In this document: one piece after another, positions 32,620-59,954 of the stretch
How the letters are laid out: the number at the start of each line of letters is the position of its first letter
How positions within the stretch are numbered: position 1 is the first letter of the stretch
Source: Candidatus Gastranaerophilales bacterium
Lineage (GTDB): Bacteria; Cyanobacteriota; Vampirovibrionia; Gastranaerophilales; Gastranaerophilaceae
DNA: 64,000 bases
Direction: 5' to 3'
Assembly (NCBI GenBank): GCA_944323985.1
Contig: CALUUP010000007.1
Span: forward strand, 1 to 64,000
Notes under the pieces: generated by a model
The model's input: the letters and a program-made list of their open reading frames with translations, nothing else
Database searches by the model: none
What the model was told of the DNA's origin: nothing
Translations under genes and position numbers: made by a program

Positions 32620-32730
32620 AAACCTTATACCTCTTTTTCTAATTTTACTTAACTGACTATTAAGAGTCAATATATACTTATTCTTCTTTTTGGAGTATAT
32701 TAAATTTGTAATAGTTAGGAGAAATTGATT

Positions 32731-33690
32731 ATGATAATGATTGCAGTAGCTTTACTTTTAAGTATGGTATTATGCCTTCTTTTTGGAGTTCCATATATTG
32801 ATTTTTTAAAGAAAAAAACAATCGGACAATATATTTTAGACCTTGCTCCGGAAGCTCATGCAAAAAAAGCAGGTACTCCAACTACAGGCGGTGTATTTAT
32901 TATTTTAGCAATCATAATTTCTTCTATCATTACACTTCTTATGGCTCAACAAATGGATAAATCTGCTTGGATAATCTTGATAACTCTATTATTTATGGGG
33001 TTGGCAGGTTTACAAGATGATTACTTAAAAATAAAAGGACAAGAAAATAAAGGTTTAAGCCCTAGAGGAAAACTCGTAAGACAAATTTTAATCGCTCTTA
33101 TTCCAACTGTTTACGCTATGAATAATTATGGAACTTTTGTCACATTAGGCTCAAAGACTTTAGAATTAGGCTTTTTATACCCTATTTTTGCCGTGTTCAT
33201 AGTTGTTGGAGCTTCTAATGCTTATAATTTAACAGATGGTTTAGATGGACTTGCAGCTTCTACCGGAATTCCGGCTTTCCTAGCTTGTGGAGCATTAGCA
33301 TTTTTAGACGGACATAATGTAGTTGCAATTGTTTCTGCTACAGTAATCGGTGCTTTAATAGGATTTTTAAAATACAATAAACCTAAAGCTCAAGTATTTA
33401 TGGGTGATACAGGCTCTCTTGCTCTTGGAGGGCTTTTAGGAACTTTAGCAATACTTGGGAAATGCGAAATCTTACTTGCTTTATTCGGTGGAGTATTCGT
33501 TATGGAAACTCTTTCTGTAATTCTTCAAGTGACAAGCTTTAAACTTACCGGTAAAAGAATTTTTAAAATGTCCCCTATCCACCACCACTTTGAACTATGC
33601 GGACATTCTGAAATTAGAATTGTAAAAGAATTTACTCTTGTTTCTTTAATACTCTCTGCAATTGCAGTTGCGATTAATTTCTTGTTATAA
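32731..33690 (+). CDS. mraY: Phospho-N-acetylmuramoyl-pentapeptide-transferase MraY
   Basis: Makes lipid I by moving phospho-MurNAc-pentapeptide onto undecaprenyl phosphate at the inner membrane. About 319 residues and ten membrane helices. Conserved motifs are QDDYLK, NAYNLTDGLDGLAA, FMGDTGSLALGG and the HHHFELCG loop. TTAGGAG lies nine bases before the ATG at 32731. It stands alone here; murD-ftsW-murG are 13 kb away, so the usual dcw cluster is broken up. Confidence 0.96.
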   Translation: MIMIAVALLLSMVLCLLFGVPYIDFLKKKTIGQYILDLAPEAHAKKAGTPTTGGVFIILAIIISSIITLLMAQQMDKSAWIILITLLFMGLAGLQDDYLKIKGQENKGLSPRGKLVRQILIALIPTVYAMNNYGTFVTLGSKTLELGFLYPIFAVFIVVGASNAYNLTDGLDGLAASTGIPAFLACGALAFLDGHNVVAIVSATVIGALIGFLKYNKPKAQVFMGDTGSLALGGLLGTLAILGKCEILLALFGGVFVMETLSVILQVTSFKLTGKRIFKMSPIHHHFELCGHSEIRIVKEFTLVSLILSAIAVAINFLL

Positions 33691-33930: not shown

Positions 33931-33958
33931 TATTATTAGAGTTTATGCTCTAATAATA
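33931..33958. promoter_or_regulatory. Palindromic operator candidate
   Basis: Perfect 11-base inverted repeat TATTATTAGAG-TTTATG-CTCTAATAATA in the divergent gap between the 75-residue gene and the HTH gene. The half-site TAGAG recurs near 34012 and directly before the HTH start (TATTAGAGTATG), which suggests autoregulation by the HTH protein. Confidence 0.5.
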
Positions 33959-34035
33959 GCATTTTCTCTCTAATTATGTCAAGAAAAATTAGCATATTTT
34001 TACTAAAAATAGAGTCTAATATATAATATTAGAGT

Positions 34036-34245
34036 ATGAATGCTATAAACGAAGTTAAAATGTTAGTTGCTAAAAAGGGTATAACCCTTACATTGCTTGC
34101 AGAACGTTTGGTAAAAATTTCAGGAAAAAAATATTCTTTAGATCTTTTATCTAAAAAATTAAGAGGTAATACTATTAGGTATTCTGAAATGAAAATGATT
34201 GCTGAAGCATTAGATATGGAACTTTTGTTTGTTGATAAGAAATAA
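34036..34245 (+). CDS. Small HTH protein, tandem paralog 1
   Basis: 69 residues: MNAINEVKMLVAKKG, then a helix-turn-helix-like TLTLLAERLVKISGK, a RYSEMKMIAEALDMEL segment and a basic end. This is like a minimal XRE-type DNA-binding domain. It is about 75% identical by eye to the next gene. TATAAT ends eight bases before the ATG, with no ribosome site, so the mRNA is predicted to be leaderless. Confidence 0.7.
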   Translation: MNAINEVKMLVAKKGITLTLLAERLVKISGKKYSLDLLSKKLRGNTIRYSEMKMIAEALDMELLFVDKK

Positions 34246-34293
34246 GTCATTCTTTTCTTTACTAAATAAAAAAATATTGTATAATACTAGAGT

Positions 34294-34503
34294 ATGAACG
34301 CAATAAATGAAGTAAAAATGCTTGCTGCAAAAAAAGGTGTAACTTTAACATCTCTTGCAAAATATTTATCAGAACACTCTGGAAAAATTTATTCTATTAA
34401 TAATTTATCTAATAAATTAAGGTCAAATACCATCAGATATTCAGAAATGAAACTTATAGCAGAAGCTCTCGATATGGAGCTTATCTTTATTGATAAAAAA
34501 TAA
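34294..34503 (+). CDS. Small HTH protein, tandem paralog 2
   Basis: 69 residues, MNAINEVKMLAAKKG, with the same layout as the preceding gene and the same end LDMELIFIDKK. Differences cluster in the middle (SLAKYLSEHSGKIYSI), which may be the recognition region. Its upstream TATAATACTAGAGTATG nearly copies that of paralog 1 (TATAATATTAGAGTATG), so promoter and gene were duplicated together and each copy has its own leaderless start. Confidence 0.7.
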   Translation: MNAINEVKMLAAKKGVTLTSLAKYLSEHSGKIYSINNLSNKLRSNTIRYSEMKLIAEALDMELIFIDKK

Positions 34504-34513
34504 GTTTTAACTG

Positions 34514-34936
34514 TTAGTTTCCATATCCTGTAGGGACATAATCTCCTTGTGCATTATAGCCGTATTGAATTCTATTTCCGCCAACTGATGTCGGAACATA
34601 ATCTCCCTGAGCGTTATACCCATATTGGACTTGTTGATTTCCATAAAAACTTGGTTTATATTCGCCTTGTGCGTTATATCCGTATTGGATTCTGTTTCCT
34701 CCGACTGATGTTGGAACGTAATCTCCTTGAGCATTATATCCATATTGAACTCGTTCGTTTCCAATAGAAGTCGGAACATAATCTCCTTGTGCGTTATATC
34801 CGTATTCTACACGTTTACCGTTTATAGAAGTTGGTACATAATCTCCTTGTGCATTATAGCCATACTGAATGTTATTTGCCATTGTATAAGCTGATGAAAA
34901 AAACAACAACAAGAATAATAAAACAAATTTTTTCAT
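34514..34936 (-). CDS. Secreted 20-residue-repeat protein (YGYNAQGDYVP repeats)
   Basis: 140 residues from the ATG at 34936 (TAGGAG upstream). A signal peptide ends near TMA. Six copies of a 20-residue unit follow, consensus VQYGYNAQGDYVPTSVGGNR. Copies 3 and 5 are identical; copy 4 varies (EYKPSFYGNQQ). The repeats are 60 bases each at DNA level. The Tyr/Gly/Asn-rich beta pattern suggests an extended surface or periplasmic fibre-like protein. Function unknown. It overlaps nothing; the hemerythrin gene lies just upstream on the same strand. Confidence 0.75.
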   Translation of the reverse strand: MKKFVLLFLLLFFSSAYTMANNIQYGYNAQGDYVPTSINGKRVEYGYNAQGDYVPTSIGNERVQYGYNAQGDYVPTSVGGNRIQYGYNAQGEYKPSFYGNQQVQYGYNAQGDYVPTSVGGNRIQYGYNAQGDYVPTGYGN

Positions 34937-34946
34937 ATAAACACTC

Positions 34947-35354
34947 CTAACACACACCTTTAGAATTTAAATATTCTTTGTATTTTTTATCTACTCCTAG
35001 AATATGATTTGCAATCCAACTTTTTAAAAATATTGCAATATCGTGATGAAGCAAATATTTATCAGAGTTAAAATCATCGATAAATTGTTCCAGTTTTTCA
35101 AGAAAAATCTTATGACTTTTTCTATGAGCGTCATAATCTGGATAATTATTTTTTAACAAGCAAGTTTCTTCTTCTGTTAGATGATATCTTGCAAATTCTT
35201 GTAACTCGTTAATGATTTTAGCTAGGGCAAATTTATCTTTTTTATTTTCCATAGCTTCATAAATATCATCAAGAGCTTTAAATAATACTCTATGATGTTC
35301 ATTAAATTTTTCTACACCTACATCATATGATAAATTCCATTTTGTACTATTCAT
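34947..35354 (-). CDS. Bacteriohemerythrin
   Basis: 135 residues, four-helix bundle with a di-iron oxygen site. Likely ligands are His20 or His21 (NEHHRVLF), His58 and Glu62 (RYHLTEEE), His77 and His81 (HRKSH), and His117 and Asp122 (NHILGVD). In bacteria it binds or delivers O2 or senses it. A free-standing short form, with no methyl-accepting domain. AAAGGAG precedes the ATG. In a mostly anaerobic gut organism it may help handle traces of O2. Confidence 0.9.
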   Translation of the reverse strand: MNSTKWNLSYDVGVEKFNEHHRVLFKALDDIYEAMENKKDKFALAKIINELQEFARYHLTEEETCLLKNNYPDYDAHRKSHKIFLEKLEQFIDDFNSDKYLLHHDIAIFLKSWIANHILGVDKKYKEYLNSKGVC

Positions 35355-45295: not shown

Positions 45296-46430
45296 TTCCA
45301 AACCTAACCTTTTTTACATTATCTTTTGATATATTTAATAAAATTCCTATCATCCATAAAGAAACCATAATAGAAGATCCTCCGTAACTTATAAATGGCA
45401 TAGGAACTCCGGTTGCAGGAACAAAAGAACTAGCAACCCACATATTTAAAAATCCTTGAAAACAAATAGAAAATGTTAGCCCAAGAGCTAAAAGTTTTCC
45501 GTACATATCCTGACATTTAGCAGCAATAGTAAAACCTCTTTGTAATATTGTCCAAAAAAGACAAATTATTAACAAACACCCAATAAAACCGTGTTCTTCG
45601 CCAATTACTGCAAAAATAAAGTCCGTATGAGCTTCCGGAAGCCAAGCGAGTTTTTGTTTAGAGCTTCCATATCCAACACCATACAAACCACCTGAAGCAA
45701 ATGCAACCAATGATTGAATAATATTATAACCGGCACCTAACGGATCAGCTTCAGGATGCAGCCAAGTAGTAATTCTTGATGATTGATACCCTTTCAAACC
45801 TTTTAATAAAAGCAAAGGTATCATAAGACTCATTCCGCCTAAAATTAATTGGACAGAACCACCAGCACAAAGATAAATTGCAACAGAAGTTGCTAAAAGA
45901 AGCAAAACCATACTCAAATTCGGTTGAGTAAAAATAAAGAACACCATTATCAAAATCGGAATAAAGGCTGTAACAATTTTATTATTATCTAATATATCGG
46001 CATTTTTATAAAAAACCGCAGAAAGTAACATTACAACCGCTGGTTTTGCAAATTCTGAAGGTTGTAAGCTTAAAGGCCCTATATTAATCCATCTTTGAGC
46101 GCCATTTACCGTAACCCCTGCAACTTTTACAAGTATTAACATTACAATAACAAATCCCGCAAAAGGCAAAGTCCAAGCCATTAATTTTTTATAATGAAAA
46201 TTGGATAAAAATTTTAACCCAACAAAACCAACAATTACACCAAACAATTGTTGAACAAAAAATCTTGCAGGATTAACACCCATTTCAATACACTTAGGAG
46301 CACTTGCTGAAAATATAGACATTAAACCGATTACAACAAGAAAAATTACTGCAATCATTAAAGGCCTATCAGATTGCATATTTTGAGGATTTAGTTTATC
46401 GGTTTTGTTTATATTATTTTGATAAGACAT
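45279..46430 (-). CDS. ftsW: Peptidoglycan glycosyltransferase FtsW (SEDS family)
   Basis: SEDS-family lipid II polymerase of the divisome. About 383 residues from ATG 46430, ten membrane helices. Motifs are IFSASAPKC, GAQRWINIGPLSLQPSEFAKPA, GEEHGFIG and PATGVPMPFISYGGSS. The start is uncertain: an ATG at 46460 is in frame, but GAGGAG lies between the two, 15 bases from 46430. FtsW over RodA is favoured by its murD/murG neighbours. Confidence 0.92.
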   Translation of the reverse strand: MSYQNNINKTDKLNPQNMQSDRPLMIAVIFLVVIGLMSIFSASAPKCIEMGVNPARFFVQQLFGVIVGFVGLKFLSNFHYKKLMAWTLPFAGFVIVMLILVKVAGVTVNGAQRWINIGPLSLQPSEFAKPAVVMLLSAVFYKNADILDNNKIVTAFIPILIMVFFIFTQPNLSMVLLLLATSVAIYLCAGGSVQLILGGMSLMIPLLLLKGLKGYQSSRITTWLHPEADPLGAGYNIIQSLVAFASGGLYGVGYGSSKQKLAWLPEAHTDFIFAVIGEEHGFIGCLLIICLFWTILQRGFTIAAKCQDMYGKLLALGLTFSICFQGFLNMWVASSFVPATGVPMPFISYGGSSIMVSLWMIGILLNISKDNVKKVRFGNDRKF

Positions 46431-47730
46431 ATTCTTTAAAAACGTCTCCTCTATGTTCATAGCTATTAAACATATCAAAACTTGCACAAGCCGGAGAAAG
46501 AAGTACTACATCTGGTTTTAAACTAATTGCTTTATCTACTGCACTCTCTAGCGAATGTTCTTTTATTATATTACTAAAACCATTTTTTTGTAGATTTTCT
46601 TCAAATCTTTCTGTTGCTTCTCCTATTAATAAAACTGTTTTTATATGTTTATTAATCGAATGGCACATTTGAGTTAAATCAGTATTTTTATCTCTACCTC
46701 CAAGTATTAAAGCAACATCTTGATTATTAAAAGAATCAATTGCTACGATACTAGCTTCAGGATTTGTAGCTTTAGAATCATTATAAAAAATAATTCCATT
46801 CATTTCTCTAACTTTTTCAAGCCTATGCTCAGGAGCTTTAAAAGACATAATTTGAGATCTTATATCTTCATTTTTCATGCCTAAAATTTTAGCAATTATT
46901 ATTCCACACATTATATTTTGATAATTATGATGTCCTACTAAAGGACAGTCTTTTAGTGAAATTATTTCTTCTCCTCTGAAAAATATGGAATCATTAACAA
47001 TTCCGCAATCATCTTCTTTATCAAAAAATATGACATTTTTACATTTTTTAGAAAACTCTAATAATTTTTCATCTTTGTAATTTAAAATTGAGTATTCCGG
47101 ATCTTGTGGCGATAAAAATACTTTTGCTTTCGCTTTAAAATAATTTTCCAATCCCCCATGCCAGTCAATATGATCAGGAGTAAAATTTGTCCAACAAGCT
47201 ATTTTAGCCTTAAATTTTTCAGTCATTTGAGCCTGATATGAACTCATTTCACAAACTAAAAAATCATGTTCTTTTTCTATTAAGGATGTTGGAGGAACAC
47301 CTATATTTCCGCAAACCGGAGCTGAAAAATCTTTGCTCAAAATATGTGAAACAAGAGCTGTAGTAGTTGTTTTACCATTGGTTCCTGTTATTACAATAAA
47401 AGGAATATTGGTATTTAAATAAGCAAATTCAACTTCTGAAATTATTTTGATATTTTTTTCATTTAATCTTCTAAAAATTTCAGATTTAGGAGGAATACCG
47501 GGACTAGTAATCGCAAAAGATGAATTAGAAATAAATTCATCACTATGATATCCACATTCTATTTTTATTCCGCATTCTTTCAAATTATCAATTTGTGAAC
47601 GATATTCTTCTTTCAAATCAACAATTGATTTTGATTCTGTAATATAAACTTCATACCCTTTATTTAAAGCAAACTTTGCGGCTGAGATTCCGCTTTTTGA
47701 AAGACCTAAAATTAAAACTTTTTCACTCAT
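46414..47730 (-). CDS. murD: UDP-N-acetylmuramoylalanine-D-glutamate ligase MurD
   Basis: Adds D-Glu to UDP-MurNAc-Ala. 438 residues. N-terminal Rossmann-like domain (LGLSKSGISAAKFAL), ATP site VITGTNGKTTTTALV, central CEMSSYQAQM and NFTPDHIDWHGG, and C-terminal IFYNDSKATNPEASIVAI and LLSPACASFDMFNSYEHRG. GGAGAAG precedes the ATG. First gene of the murD-ftsW-murG operon. Confidence 0.96.
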   Translation of the reverse strand: MSEKVLILGLSKSGISAAKFALNKGYEVYITESKSIVDLKEEYRSQIDNLKECGIKIECGYHSDEFISNSSFAITSPGIPPKSEIFRRLNEKNIKIISEVEFAYLNTNIPFIVITGTNGKTTTTALVSHILSKDFSAPVCGNIGVPPTSLIEKEHDFLVCEMSSYQAQMTEKFKAKIACWTNFTPDHIDWHGGLENYFKAKAKVFLSPQDPEYSILNYKDEKLLEFSKKCKNVIFFDKEDDCGIVNDSIFFRGEEIISLKDCPLVGHHNYQNIMCGIIIAKILGMKNEDIRSQIMSFKAPEHRLEKVREMNGIIFYNDSKATNPEASIVAIDSFNNQDVALILGGRDKNTDLTQMCHSINKHIKTVLLIGEATERFEENLQKNGFSNIIKEHSLESAVDKAISLKPDVVLLSPACASFDMFNSYEHRGDVFKEYVLSK

Positions 47731-47813: not shown

Positions 47814-48038
47814 TTATACTAACAATTGACGATAAAATTCTATACTGGAAGTATCAATTTTATTAATAATTTCGTTTTGTCTTTTTCTTATTACTTCTAC
47901 TATTGTTAAAATCTCTCCAATTTCCGAACTTTCCATTAAATTATTATTACAATACCCTTCTAAGATACTTAATAAATTTTGGTTTTCAGCAGTCATTTCA
48001 AGTATTTCGTTAAAAAAATTTAAAAGTTTTTCGTTCAT
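47814..48038 (-). CDS. Small helical GYC-motif protein of the divergent module, copy B
   Basis: 74 residues, all helix. NLLSILEGYCNNN and GEILTIVEVIRKRQNEII align with LLEIINGYC and YDLLDVLSTVINNHKELQ of the protein at 59467. GAGGTG precedes the ATG. It is divergent from the tiny RHH gene at 48144 across 105 bases that contain palindromes. No known family. Antitoxin, toxin or co-regulator are all possible. Confidence 0.65.
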   Translation of the reverse strand: MNEKLLNFFNEILEMTAENQNLLSILEGYCNNNLMESSEIGEILTIVEVIRKRQNEIINKIDTSSIEFYRQLLV

Positions 48039-48143
48039 AATTACACCTCATTTAGTTGTAATTTAGTTATAACATAATTGCAAATTTATTACAATTGATA
48101 TGTGTATAAAATTATAATATTATTGTAAAAAGGTTGGTAGTTT

Positions 48144-48302
48144 ATGACATTAAATAATAAAAAAAGATTTGTTTTATTAGTTGAAAATGATATTTATGAA
48201 AAGTTTAAAAAACTAGCAGAAAATCAAAATAGAACTGCTGGAAATTTAGGAACTACATTAATTAAAAATTATGTAAAAGAAAACTACCAAGAAGAATTGT
48301 AA
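48144..48302 (+). CDS. Tiny ribbon-helix-helix-like DNA-binding protein, copy B
   Basis: 52 residues: MTLNNKKRFVLLVENDIYEK, then FKKLAENQNRTAGNLGTTLI and a charged end. One beta strand (RFVLLVEN) and two helices fit the Arc/MetJ/CopG fold, which works as a dimer on palindromic DNA. AAAGG precedes the ATG. Its partner is the divergent 74-residue gene. The gap holds GTTATAAC (48066-48073) and the inverted repeat TTGTAAT/ATTACAA (48056-48062, 48088-48094). Confidence 0.65.
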   Translation: MTLNNKKRFVLLVENDIYEKFKKLAENQNRTAGNLGTTLIKNYVKENYQEEL

Positions 48303-57949: not shown

Positions 57950-57991
57950 AAAAATTTGATACTATTAAATAGTATTAGTGGTAGGTATTTT

Positions 57992-59092
57992 GTGCAAATT
58001 TTTCCAATAAATTTTAAAATAAATCAACCAATAAATTATAGAGAAAATATAATGACACCAAGAACTAATTTTCAGAGGTTAGATATGATAAGCAAACCTG
58101 ATGAGATTTCGTTTAGAGCAAATACTTCAAATGGAAATATTTTAAAAAAATTAAAAGAAATTACTTGCCCATATACAGGTATAAAAATGTTATCAGGTTC
58201 AACTGTTACGGCTTTAGAAAAAAGAATTGAGGGTTTTAAATCTACTGAAAGAATACTAAAAATGCTTTCTAAATATACTGATTATATGCAAATAACAGAA
58301 AAAAAAATGTATAATATTTTTTCAAAATATGCAGAAGAAAGTCCAAATAAAAAATTAACAGATTGTCTTCAAGAATTATATAATGAAAGTTTAGCAAAAT
58401 TAAAACTGGAAGAATTTGAAGTTTTAGATAATGTCGATGATATTTCAAAAGAATTATCACCTGAAACAGCTTTACAAGTAAGAGCAAAAACAACTCGTTG
58501 TCGAGAAGTTATATTAGCTAACAATAAAGAAGATACATTTAAGCGTAGGATATTTTTAGATTCTTTAAACGAAATAAAACCAAAAAATGACAATGAAAAA
58601 ACGATATTAGAAAAAATGAAAGATCAAGCTCTATATCTTCCAACTTCAAGCAGTAGTAAAAACGCTTTCATTGTAAAATACGCTTCTAGAGGAGAAAAAG
58701 AAATCGCAAAAAGGATTTTAAGAGCATCCGCAGGAACAATTGAACATATAAAACCTGATTCCAAAGGAGGAGAAAATGATATTGGAAACTTTATATTAGT
58801 ATCATCTCTAGCAAACAGTAACCGTGAAAATATGCCATTAGAAAAATATATAAAAAGACATCCAAATATTCCTCAATATTGTCAACAATATGTTGAAGAA
58901 ATAATGCAAGAGATTTATAAAGGTCATTTGAAAGGTAACGAAACTTACCCATACAAAATAAAAGAAAGATTAGCAAAAGAATCTAATAATAAGATACAGT
59001 TAGATTTATCAAACTATAGATACACTTATTCTGAAGCTATTGAAAAAGAAAGTAATTATTATAAGAATTTAAAAACAAAACGTAAAAAATAA
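57992..59092 (+). CDS. HNH-endonuclease-like protein with FKG/FRA-type leader
   Basis: 366 residues if GTG 57992 is the start, preferred because the N-terminus then reads VQIFPINFKINQ, like the local leader; ATG 58052 is the alternative. ISFRAN follows. A Cys (ITCPYTGIKM) precedes a long helical insert. An HNH-like block sits at about residues 245-280: TIEHIKPDSKGGENDIGNF and LANSNREN. The His-Asn-Asn spacing fits HNH nucleases, but the usual Cys pairs are not all present. DNA or RNA target unknown. Confidence 0.6.
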   Translation: MQIFPINFKINQPINYRENIMTPRTNFQRLDMISKPDEISFRANTSNGNILKKLKEITCPYTGIKMLSGSTVTALEKRIEGFKSTERILKMLSKYTDYMQITEKKMYNIFSKYAEESPNKKLTDCLQELYNESLAKLKLEEFEVLDNVDDISKELSPETALQVRAKTTRCREVILANNKEDTFKRRIFLDSLNEIKPKNDNEKTILEKMKDQALYLPTSSSSKNAFIVKYASRGEKEIAKRILRASAGTIEHIKPDSKGGENDIGNFILVSSLANSNRENMPLEKYIKRHPNIPQYCQQYVEEIMQEIYKGHLKGNETYPYKIKERLAKESNNKIQLDLSNYRYTYSEAIEKESNYYKNLKTKRKK

Positions 59093-59170: not shown

Positions 59171-59470
59171 ATGGAAAGTTGCCGAGTATTCACATATTCA
59201 CCGAATAACAGATACGCAAAAGATTATTATAATGCGTGTAAGAATTTTGATAATATTAGGAATAAAATCATAGATTATGAACACTCTACTTCTGATAGAG
59301 AGAGCATAAAATATGAAAAAATGATAGAAGAATTCCGTTATTGGGATGCAAAGGTTCCTGAAACATCAAATATTGCAGGTCAAGAGGAGTGGCGTCTTAA
59401 AGCTGAACAAGAAAACAATAAGGATAAAAACAATTCATTAGAAAACCATAAACTTGATTTCTACGCTTAA
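59171..59470 (+). CDS. Unknown small protein
   Basis: 99 residues, hydrophilic and helical: ESCRVFTYSPNNRYAKDYY, then a heavily charged end rich in Asn, Lys and Glu. GGAAAT upstream is a weak ribosome site. No recognised domain. Its stop overlaps the end of the convergent 73-residue gene by four bases. Confidence 0.5.
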   Translation: MESCRVFTYSPNNRYAKDYYNACKNFDNIRNKIIDYEHSTSDRESIKYEKMIEEFRYWDAKVPETSNIAGQEEWRLKAEQENNKDKNNSLENHKLDFYA

Positions 59471-59688
59471 TTTAATTTTGTTTTAAATATTTCTAAATTT
59501 AAAATCTCAAGTTTATCTTGTAATTCTTTATGATTGTTGATTACTGTACTTAACACATCTAATAAATCATATACTTCATCAATATGTTCTGAAAAATATA
59601 AACAATATCCATTTATAATTTCCAGTAAAGATTTATTTTTGGATAATAAAATTTCAATTTGTTCTAAATTAGATTCAATATTTTGCAT
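59467..59688 (-). CDS. Small helical GYC-motif protein of the divergent module, copy C
   Basis: 73 residues from the ATG at 59688 (AGAGGA upstream). Motif LLEIINGYCLYF and helix YDLLDVLSTVINNHKELQ align with copy B at 47814. Divergent from the tiny RHH gene at 59808. The gap between them has TGATATCA (59719-59726) and a second TTGATGTCAA half-copy nearby, which may be the operator. Confidence 0.65.
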   Translation of the reverse strand: MQNIESNLEQIEILLSKNKSLLEIINGYCLYFSEHIDEVYDLLDVLSTVINNHKELQDKLEILNLEIFKTKLN

Positions 59689-59807
59689 CTTAATCCTCTC
59701 TTTTTTAAGAGTATAGTCTGATATCATTTTGATGTCAATATGCACGCTTGATTATTTTTATTTATAACTATAAGATTTATTAAATAGGTAATTTAAGGGA
59801 GTCTTAA

Positions 59808-59954
59808 ATGTCAATTAATGAAAAAAATCAAAAAGTTTTTACTTTAAGAATTGATAATAATCTTTTTGAAAGAATAAAAAAAGACGCAGAAAAAAATAAA
59901 CGTACCATTACTAAACATATAGAATATGTTTTGGAAAAAAGTCTTGAACAATAA
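59808..59954 (+). CDS. Tiny ribbon-helix-helix-like DNA-binding protein, copy C
   Basis: 48 residues: MSINEKNQKVFTLRIDNNLF, then ERIKKDAEKNKRTITKHIEY and a short tail. Beta strand VFTLRID followed by two helices is the RHH pattern, clearer than in copy B. AAGGGAG lies six to seven bases before the ATG. It pairs with the divergent 73-residue gene. Confidence 0.72.
   Translation: MSINEKNQKVFTLRIDNNLFERIKKDAEKNKRTITKHIEYVLEKSLEQ

Follow-up and report, generated by a model that had tools for sequence, protein, structure and literature searches.

A family of small, predicted helical-hairpin proteins often encoded divergently from exchangeable minimal DNA-binding regulators in Gastranaerophilales

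In Bacillus, the antirepressor SinI acts on the XRE repressor SinR via the dimerisation domain of the latter, and the Omega (RHH) repressor of pSM19035 and the CopG-type RHH regulators are tiny proteins whose binding sites are short repeats lined up across promoters. In type II toxin-antitoxin systems the genes are co-transcribed, usually with the antitoxin first, and in addition to its DNA-binding domain the antitoxin usually carries a region at its C-terminus that binds the toxin (PMC4803016). The combination of a small protein with an RHH, XRE or AbrB regulator has served as a signature for predicting type II systems, and the XRE-DUF397 pairs were first predicted as toxin-antitoxin from this kind of pairing (PMC2701414). 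A Streptomyces XRE regulator depends on the DUF397 protein with which it is paired. Fourteen XRE-DUF397 pairs showed no toxic effect on over-expression (PMC10364602).

The window analyzed here is a stretch of 64,000 nucleotides from a Candidatus Gastranaerophilales bacterium, a member of a gut lineage related to cyanobacteria, whose genome of 1.86 Mb is labelled G000. An earlier, sequence-only reading had singled out three pairs of a small helical protein and a small DNA-binding protein, and the positions, protein lengths and ribosome sites it gave all hold. The genes are divergent in all three pairs, and partners 1, 2 and 3 are preceded by the purine-rich ribosome sites gaggtg, gagagg and ggagagg, respectively:

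47814 to 48038, minus strand: partner 1, ORF of an acidic two-helix protein of 74 aa (LLSILEGYC)
48144 to 48302, plus strand: RHH 1, a probable minimal ribbon-helix-helix protein of 52 aa, putative autorepressor
59467 to 59688, minus strand: partner 2, homologue of partner 1 with 73 aa from its own ATG (LLEIINGYC)
59808 to 59954, plus strand: RHH 2, a probable ribbon-helix-helix protein of 48 aa
33685 to 33912, minus strand: partner 3, a helical hairpin of 75 aa from a second partner group
34036 to 34245, plus strand: HTH 3, an HTH_26-like regulator of 69 aa
34294 to 34503, plus strand: tandem paralogue of HTH 3 (75% identity)

In Pfam, RHH 1 matched RHH_5 (E 2.3e-4) and RHH 2 matched DUF6364, CopG_antitoxin (7.9e-4) and RHH_1 (4.9e-3), together spanning E 3.6e-4 to 5e-3, as well as Arc (E 6.1e-3); all of these matches fall under the curated cut-offs. 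HTH 3 matched HTH_26 alone (E 0.045). Relatives of RHH 1 were recovered from 37 of 192 genomes. Next to the second pair lie genes for a 378-aa protein that resembles HNH endonucleases in weak matches (57956-59092) and for a 99-aa protein without matches (59171-59470), the latter being lost together with partner 2 in genome G094. Beside the third pair a small protein of QYGYNAQGDYVPTS-type repeats is encoded (34514-34957).

The sequence comparisons indicate that partners 1 and 2 are true homologues, as the sequence-only reading had held. Both carry the motif LL-x-I-x-x-GYC, and their match sets overlapped when 192 genomes of the order were searched. Partner 2 scored E 1.1e-14 against a profile built without it, and still E 6e-13 once its two nearest kin were dropped as well. 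Within the window's own genome, partners 1 and 2 were the only clearly significant matches to a profile of 22 partner members (A2). We define the GYC helical-hairpin family by a significant match to such a leave-out profile, which partners 1 and 2 both give. Partner 3 lacks the motif, scored against the family profile like shuffled decoys, as did several other hairpins, and gave no significance in a profile-profile comparison with the GYC family; because it fails the leave-out test it was kept out. A profile search, which had been named as a check on the relatedness of the three, unites the first two and not the third. The group of partner 3 has matches in 8 genomes, where it is divergent from HTH_26-like or XRE genes. 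Partner 1 is a real gene under purifying selection, with a dN/dS of 0.07 and 0.08 against two relatives, values that derive from few sites (8-9 synonymous and 3-4 non-synonymous changes).

In AlphaFold2 models, partner 1 (pLDDT 92; helices 2-31 and 37-73) and partner 3 (pLDDT 87.5; helices 7-35 and 42-71) each take the form of a hairpin of two helices. For the weaker third case a similar layout and predicted fold, in common with partners 1 and 2, are therefore supported, whereas shared ancestry is not; its operator-like site also has a corresponding position. The family consists of mostly acidic hairpins of about 53-84 aa, partner 1 having a pI of 4.4. A sequence search of the PDB with the partners gave no relative, and Foldseek with the predicted fold recovered generic hairpins only, mostly designed bundles and none with E < 0.1. 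Since a two-helix hairpin resembles many unrelated structures, the fold tells little of the function. A likeness to CsoR/CstR, suggested by weak Foldseek matches, was dropped given that the partners are mostly acidic and have a single motif cysteine.

To make an inventory of the neighbours, the divergently transcribed gene was read for 78 distinct partner sequences. A minimal DNA-binding protein was found for 45 of these across a gap of about 0-200 bp: 25 of XRE type, 10 RHH, 5 AbrB-like and 5 HTH_26-like. Classes were assigned by script patterns that were derived from the neighbours seen, five being fixed by eye (L036, L093, L094 and L124 to XRE, L116 to RHH), and a handful of weak hits could be spurious. 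The same arrangement was found for none of 169 control genes (60 window genes and 109 from the murD and tsaC loci), giving a Fisher p of 2e-28 for a comparison in which the members are not phylogenetically independent and the controls are longer genes. The claim of an accessory family beside small DNA-binding genes is borne out by these counts, the neighbour being recurrent and not universal: 33 of the 78 partners have none, and many of these are convergent with prmC or lie between a 295-aa gene and rpsG. Pairs of an RHH protein and a helical partner, as first described, do exist, but that description is too narrow, since at least three further types of regulator are interchangeable with RHH. 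As a rule the RHH proteins measure 47-52 aa, the AbrB-like ones 53-58, the HTH_26-like ones 68-69 and most XRE ones 68-75. By prediction the regulators are bare DNA-binding domains, about one domain each, with no toxin-binding tail.

The small regulators also occur in other settings. HTH_26-like regulators of 69-74 aa (34036-34503 and loci L195, L197, L200, L202-L205, L207 and L208) are present in 80 of 146 family genomes, with up to 11 per genome. In one of their subfamilies the divergent neighbour is regularly a type IV pilin-like gene (FTLAEVLITLGIIGVVAAL). At seven loci (L141, L143, L145, L146, L152, L156 and L157) RHH genes of the 48144 family are divergent from other small helical proteins, of which only that of L156 joins the GYC family, and weakly; those of L141 and L145 were tested for membership and revealed no homology. 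Downstream of tsaC in genome G106 (L211), a 51-aa AbrB-like gene is divergent from that of an 84-aa protein in the same layout, and the family profile does not recognize this protein. Hairpin partners as a whole may extend well beyond a single sequence family.

A tree of the 78 partners, which has few columns and many open forks, requires no fewer than 21 changes of regulator type. One clade with a support of 99 includes window partner 2 with its RHH gene, a member paired with an HTH_26-like gene and another paired with an XRE gene, which shows that regulator folds were exchanged between close relatives of the partner. The partner can also be lost. At the tsaC site of G094 the RHH 2 gene is intact, but partner 2 is missing along with the adjoining 99-aa gene and most of the gap; in G084, RHH 1 and its operator-like array are intact and the reading frame of the partner ends early, some ten codons in. 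A murD-based empty-site test gave no information as the gene order was scrambled. Partners without regulator and regulators without partner argue against addiction.

The gaps between the genes had been described as palindromic for the first pair, and palindromes were found in the other two as well. The sites and the promoter-like sequences near them are:

48056 to 48094, no strand: candidate operator array A, TTRYAA boxes at 48056, 48067, 48078 and 48089 with an 11-bp period, on the partner side of gap 1
48095 to 48123: promoter-like site of RHH 1, TTGATA-17-TATTAT
48112 to 48128, no strand: candidate operator array B, two TTRYAA boxes (48112, 48123) overlying the RHH 1 promoter-like site
59710 to 59738, minus strand: promoter-like site of partner 2, TTGACA-17-TATACT, overlapped by TGATATCA (59719) and TGATGTCA (59730)
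33934 to 33955, no strand: gap 3 palindrome, TATTAGAG-N6-CTCTAATA, which overlaps partner 3's promoter-like site
33982 to 33953, minus strand: promoter-like site of partner 3, TTGACA-18-TATTAT
33999 to 34027: promoter-like site of HTH 3, TTTACT-17-TATAAT
34027 to 34034, plus strand: half-site TATTAGAG, touching the promoter-like site of HTH 3

All 11-bp-spaced TTRYAA pairs of the window lie in gap 1 (starts 48056, 48067, 48078 and 48112), and in the whole genome a three-box array occurs in this gap only (reversed control: 0). Many RHH genes of the 48144 family have such palindromic boxes upstream at the same period, usually four on the partner side and two or three by the RHH start. In total, the RHH gaps contain 41 TTRYAA pairs at 11 bp versus 0.2 expected from dinucleotide shuffles, a comparison uncorrected for relatedness. 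Base changes within the boxes between G000 and G094 leave them TTRYAA. The arrays are absent at RHH relatives with the DNA-contact strand KKRLTLLI instead of KKRFVLLV. The same TTRYAA arrays are found opposite a GYC hairpin at L069 and L128 and opposite another kind of helical protein at L141, L145 and L146. In gap 2, TGATATCA and TGATGTCA are two TGATRTCA palindromes spaced by 11 bp. Promoter-like sites are no commoner in the gaps than in shuffles, except in gap 3. The operator-like array of gap 1 spans both sides of the gap, and in the other two gaps the best promoter-like site for the partner gene is overlapped by operator-like sites. An array of 11-bp period is consistent with binding of the RHH type, and repression of both genes from the gap would be the natural inference. 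The suggestion of a self-regulating pair gains support in this way. Tiny RHH proteins that would bind rows of repeats over promoters recall the Omega and CopG-type regulators; unlike in those systems, the repeat is a palindromic TTRYAA box of 11-bp period that is dedicated to one divergent gap.

Profile A2 matched 71 of 288 genomes of the window's family. Among 339 genomes across the phylum Cyanobacteriota, 38 matched at E <= 1e-4 and all 38 belong to this family, to which the partners are thus confined as far as these genomes reach. Scans of 29 members against Pfam, PHROG, NCBIfam and PADLOC gave no fitting model, only scattered chance-level matches, nearly all of single members. Partner 1 had no match in phage and plasmid collections, and the viral searches, in scans that use near-identical words and that distant relatives would escape, found none either. 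The family has no stretch of sufficient conservation for a profile scan of viral contigs. A search for literature on such modules in Gastranaerophilales or Melainabacteria found nothing. The earlier remark that no described system of this make-up was known is supported: the partner family and the module are undescribed, and they are of a broadly known kind, an autoregulated regulator with a small protein. What is unusual is the extent of the regulator-fold exchange together with a well-defined operator candidate.

As to genomic position, partner genes are very often convergent with a core gene and either stop a few bases from its 3' end or overlap that end by 3-23 nt (loci L008, L012-L015, L017-L023, L025, L036, L052, L101, L109, L113, L118 and L122-L126). 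Named by sequence reading, the core genes so flanked are mraY (in the window, 33685-33690), prmC, ffh, rpoD, murI, mnmE and typA, and insertion at core-gene 3' ends may be the rule. The genes mraY (32725-33690) and murD (46414-47730) are adjacent in relatives (L159, L163) and lie here about 13 kb apart on opposite strands; the third pair follows mraY and the first precedes murD, as if the modules mark rearrangement breakpoints.

We lean towards the view that each locus is a self-contained, chromosomal and non-addictive module in which a dedicated, exchangeable autorepressor controls an acidic helical-hairpin protein. The small RHH, XRE, HTH_26-like or AbrB-like protein would bind the gap cooperatively as a row of dimers and repress its own gene and that of the partner, whose level would rise only once the repressor is titrated or inactivated. 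The partner, an alpha-helical hairpin that probably dimerises to a four-helix bundle, would exert its effect through protein-protein contact with some target in the cell other than its regulator. In this view the regulator would be an exchangeable on/off switch and the helical protein the effector. That the effector is an adaptor or modulator of a core cellular machine is the weakest step, possible but doubtful. The account has to accommodate that regulator-fold swapping is also typical of toxin-antitoxin networks (PMC2701414).

A rather unlikely alternative is that the hairpin binds its own divergently encoded regulator and alters its DNA binding, as an antirepressor or co-regulator. Like SinI/SinR, the loci combine a small helical protein with a small DNA-binding repressor encoded beside it, the pairing recurs, and the hairpin is small and mostly acidic; but the regulators, as bare DNA-binding domains, are without a dimerisation domain like that of SinR and have unrelated folds. 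One partner clade pairs with RHH, XRE and HTH_26-like folds that offer no common interaction surface, and both partners without regulator and RHH genes without partner exist. The XRE-DUF397 pairs of Streptomyces (Scr1/Scr2 and others) provide a precedent, being regulators and not toxins (PMC10364602). They also have many copies per clade, combine a small uncharacterized protein (63-91 aa) with a DNA-binding regulator, are lineage-restricted and mainly chromosomal, and were first called toxin-antitoxin (PMC10364602, PMC6262351). Unlike in those pairs, the genes here are divergent, the regulator folds are swapped, a bare DNA-binding domain, about 47-75 aa long, takes the place of a 258-286 aa XRE protein with DUF5753, and no DUF397 match was found by Pfam among the 29 partners scanned. 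The antirepressor reading may hold for single subfamilies.

Less probable still is a toxin-antitoxin-like module, as the sequence-only reading had suggested, in which the helical protein is a growth inhibitor controlled, and perhaps neutralized, by the DNA-binding protein. The pairing has the predictive signature described above, autorepression is deduced, and the distribution is accessory and scattered; the RHH, XRE and AbrB folds, the interchangeable pairing and the symmetric operator-like sites all recall type II systems. Against this, the genes are divergent and not co-transcribed, in the three window pairs as in the 45 paired relatives, and the regulators, of about 47-75 aa, lack a toxin-binding extension. 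The partners have no enzyme-like or known toxin fold, PADLOC matches were not above chance, and the phage and plasmid collections contained none. Regulator-less members are fixed beside core genes at the prmC and rpsG loci in several genomes, and free-standing RHH genes are kept after loss of the partner. The same logic had predicted XRE-DUF397 to be toxin-antitoxin, and these pairs showed no toxicity (PMC10364602). A classical type II toxin-antitoxin system is therefore disfavoured. Finally, chance placement of small orphan genes beside unrelated small regulators, without functional link, is highly improbable: only about 58% of the members have such a neighbour and many of the same regulators adjoin other genes, such as pilin-like ones, but the control genes lacked the arrangement, operator-like sites extend over the partner's side of the gap, and the layout is preserved across genera.

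The module of a hairpin effector under an exchangeable autorepressor could be extended to lineage-wide swappable switches, that is, fast-evolving hairpin effectors acting on core machinery (translation, a sigma factor or the cell wall), with dedicated local repressors repeatedly replaced by unrelated folds and no addiction; as a whole this broader picture is more likely wrong than right by some distance. What emerges is a protein family not described before, for which a fold is predicted, together with a candidate for a dedicated operator code and clear evidence that regulator folds are swapped. The lineage concerned consists of uncultured gut bacteria, in which small regulators have seldom been described. 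The TTRYAA array amounts to a specific, testable prediction of a regulator and its operator. As free-standing partners and free-standing repressors both exist, the family offers a natural test of the habit, seen with XRE-DUF397, of calling every pair of a small protein and a DNA-binding protein a toxin-antitoxin system.
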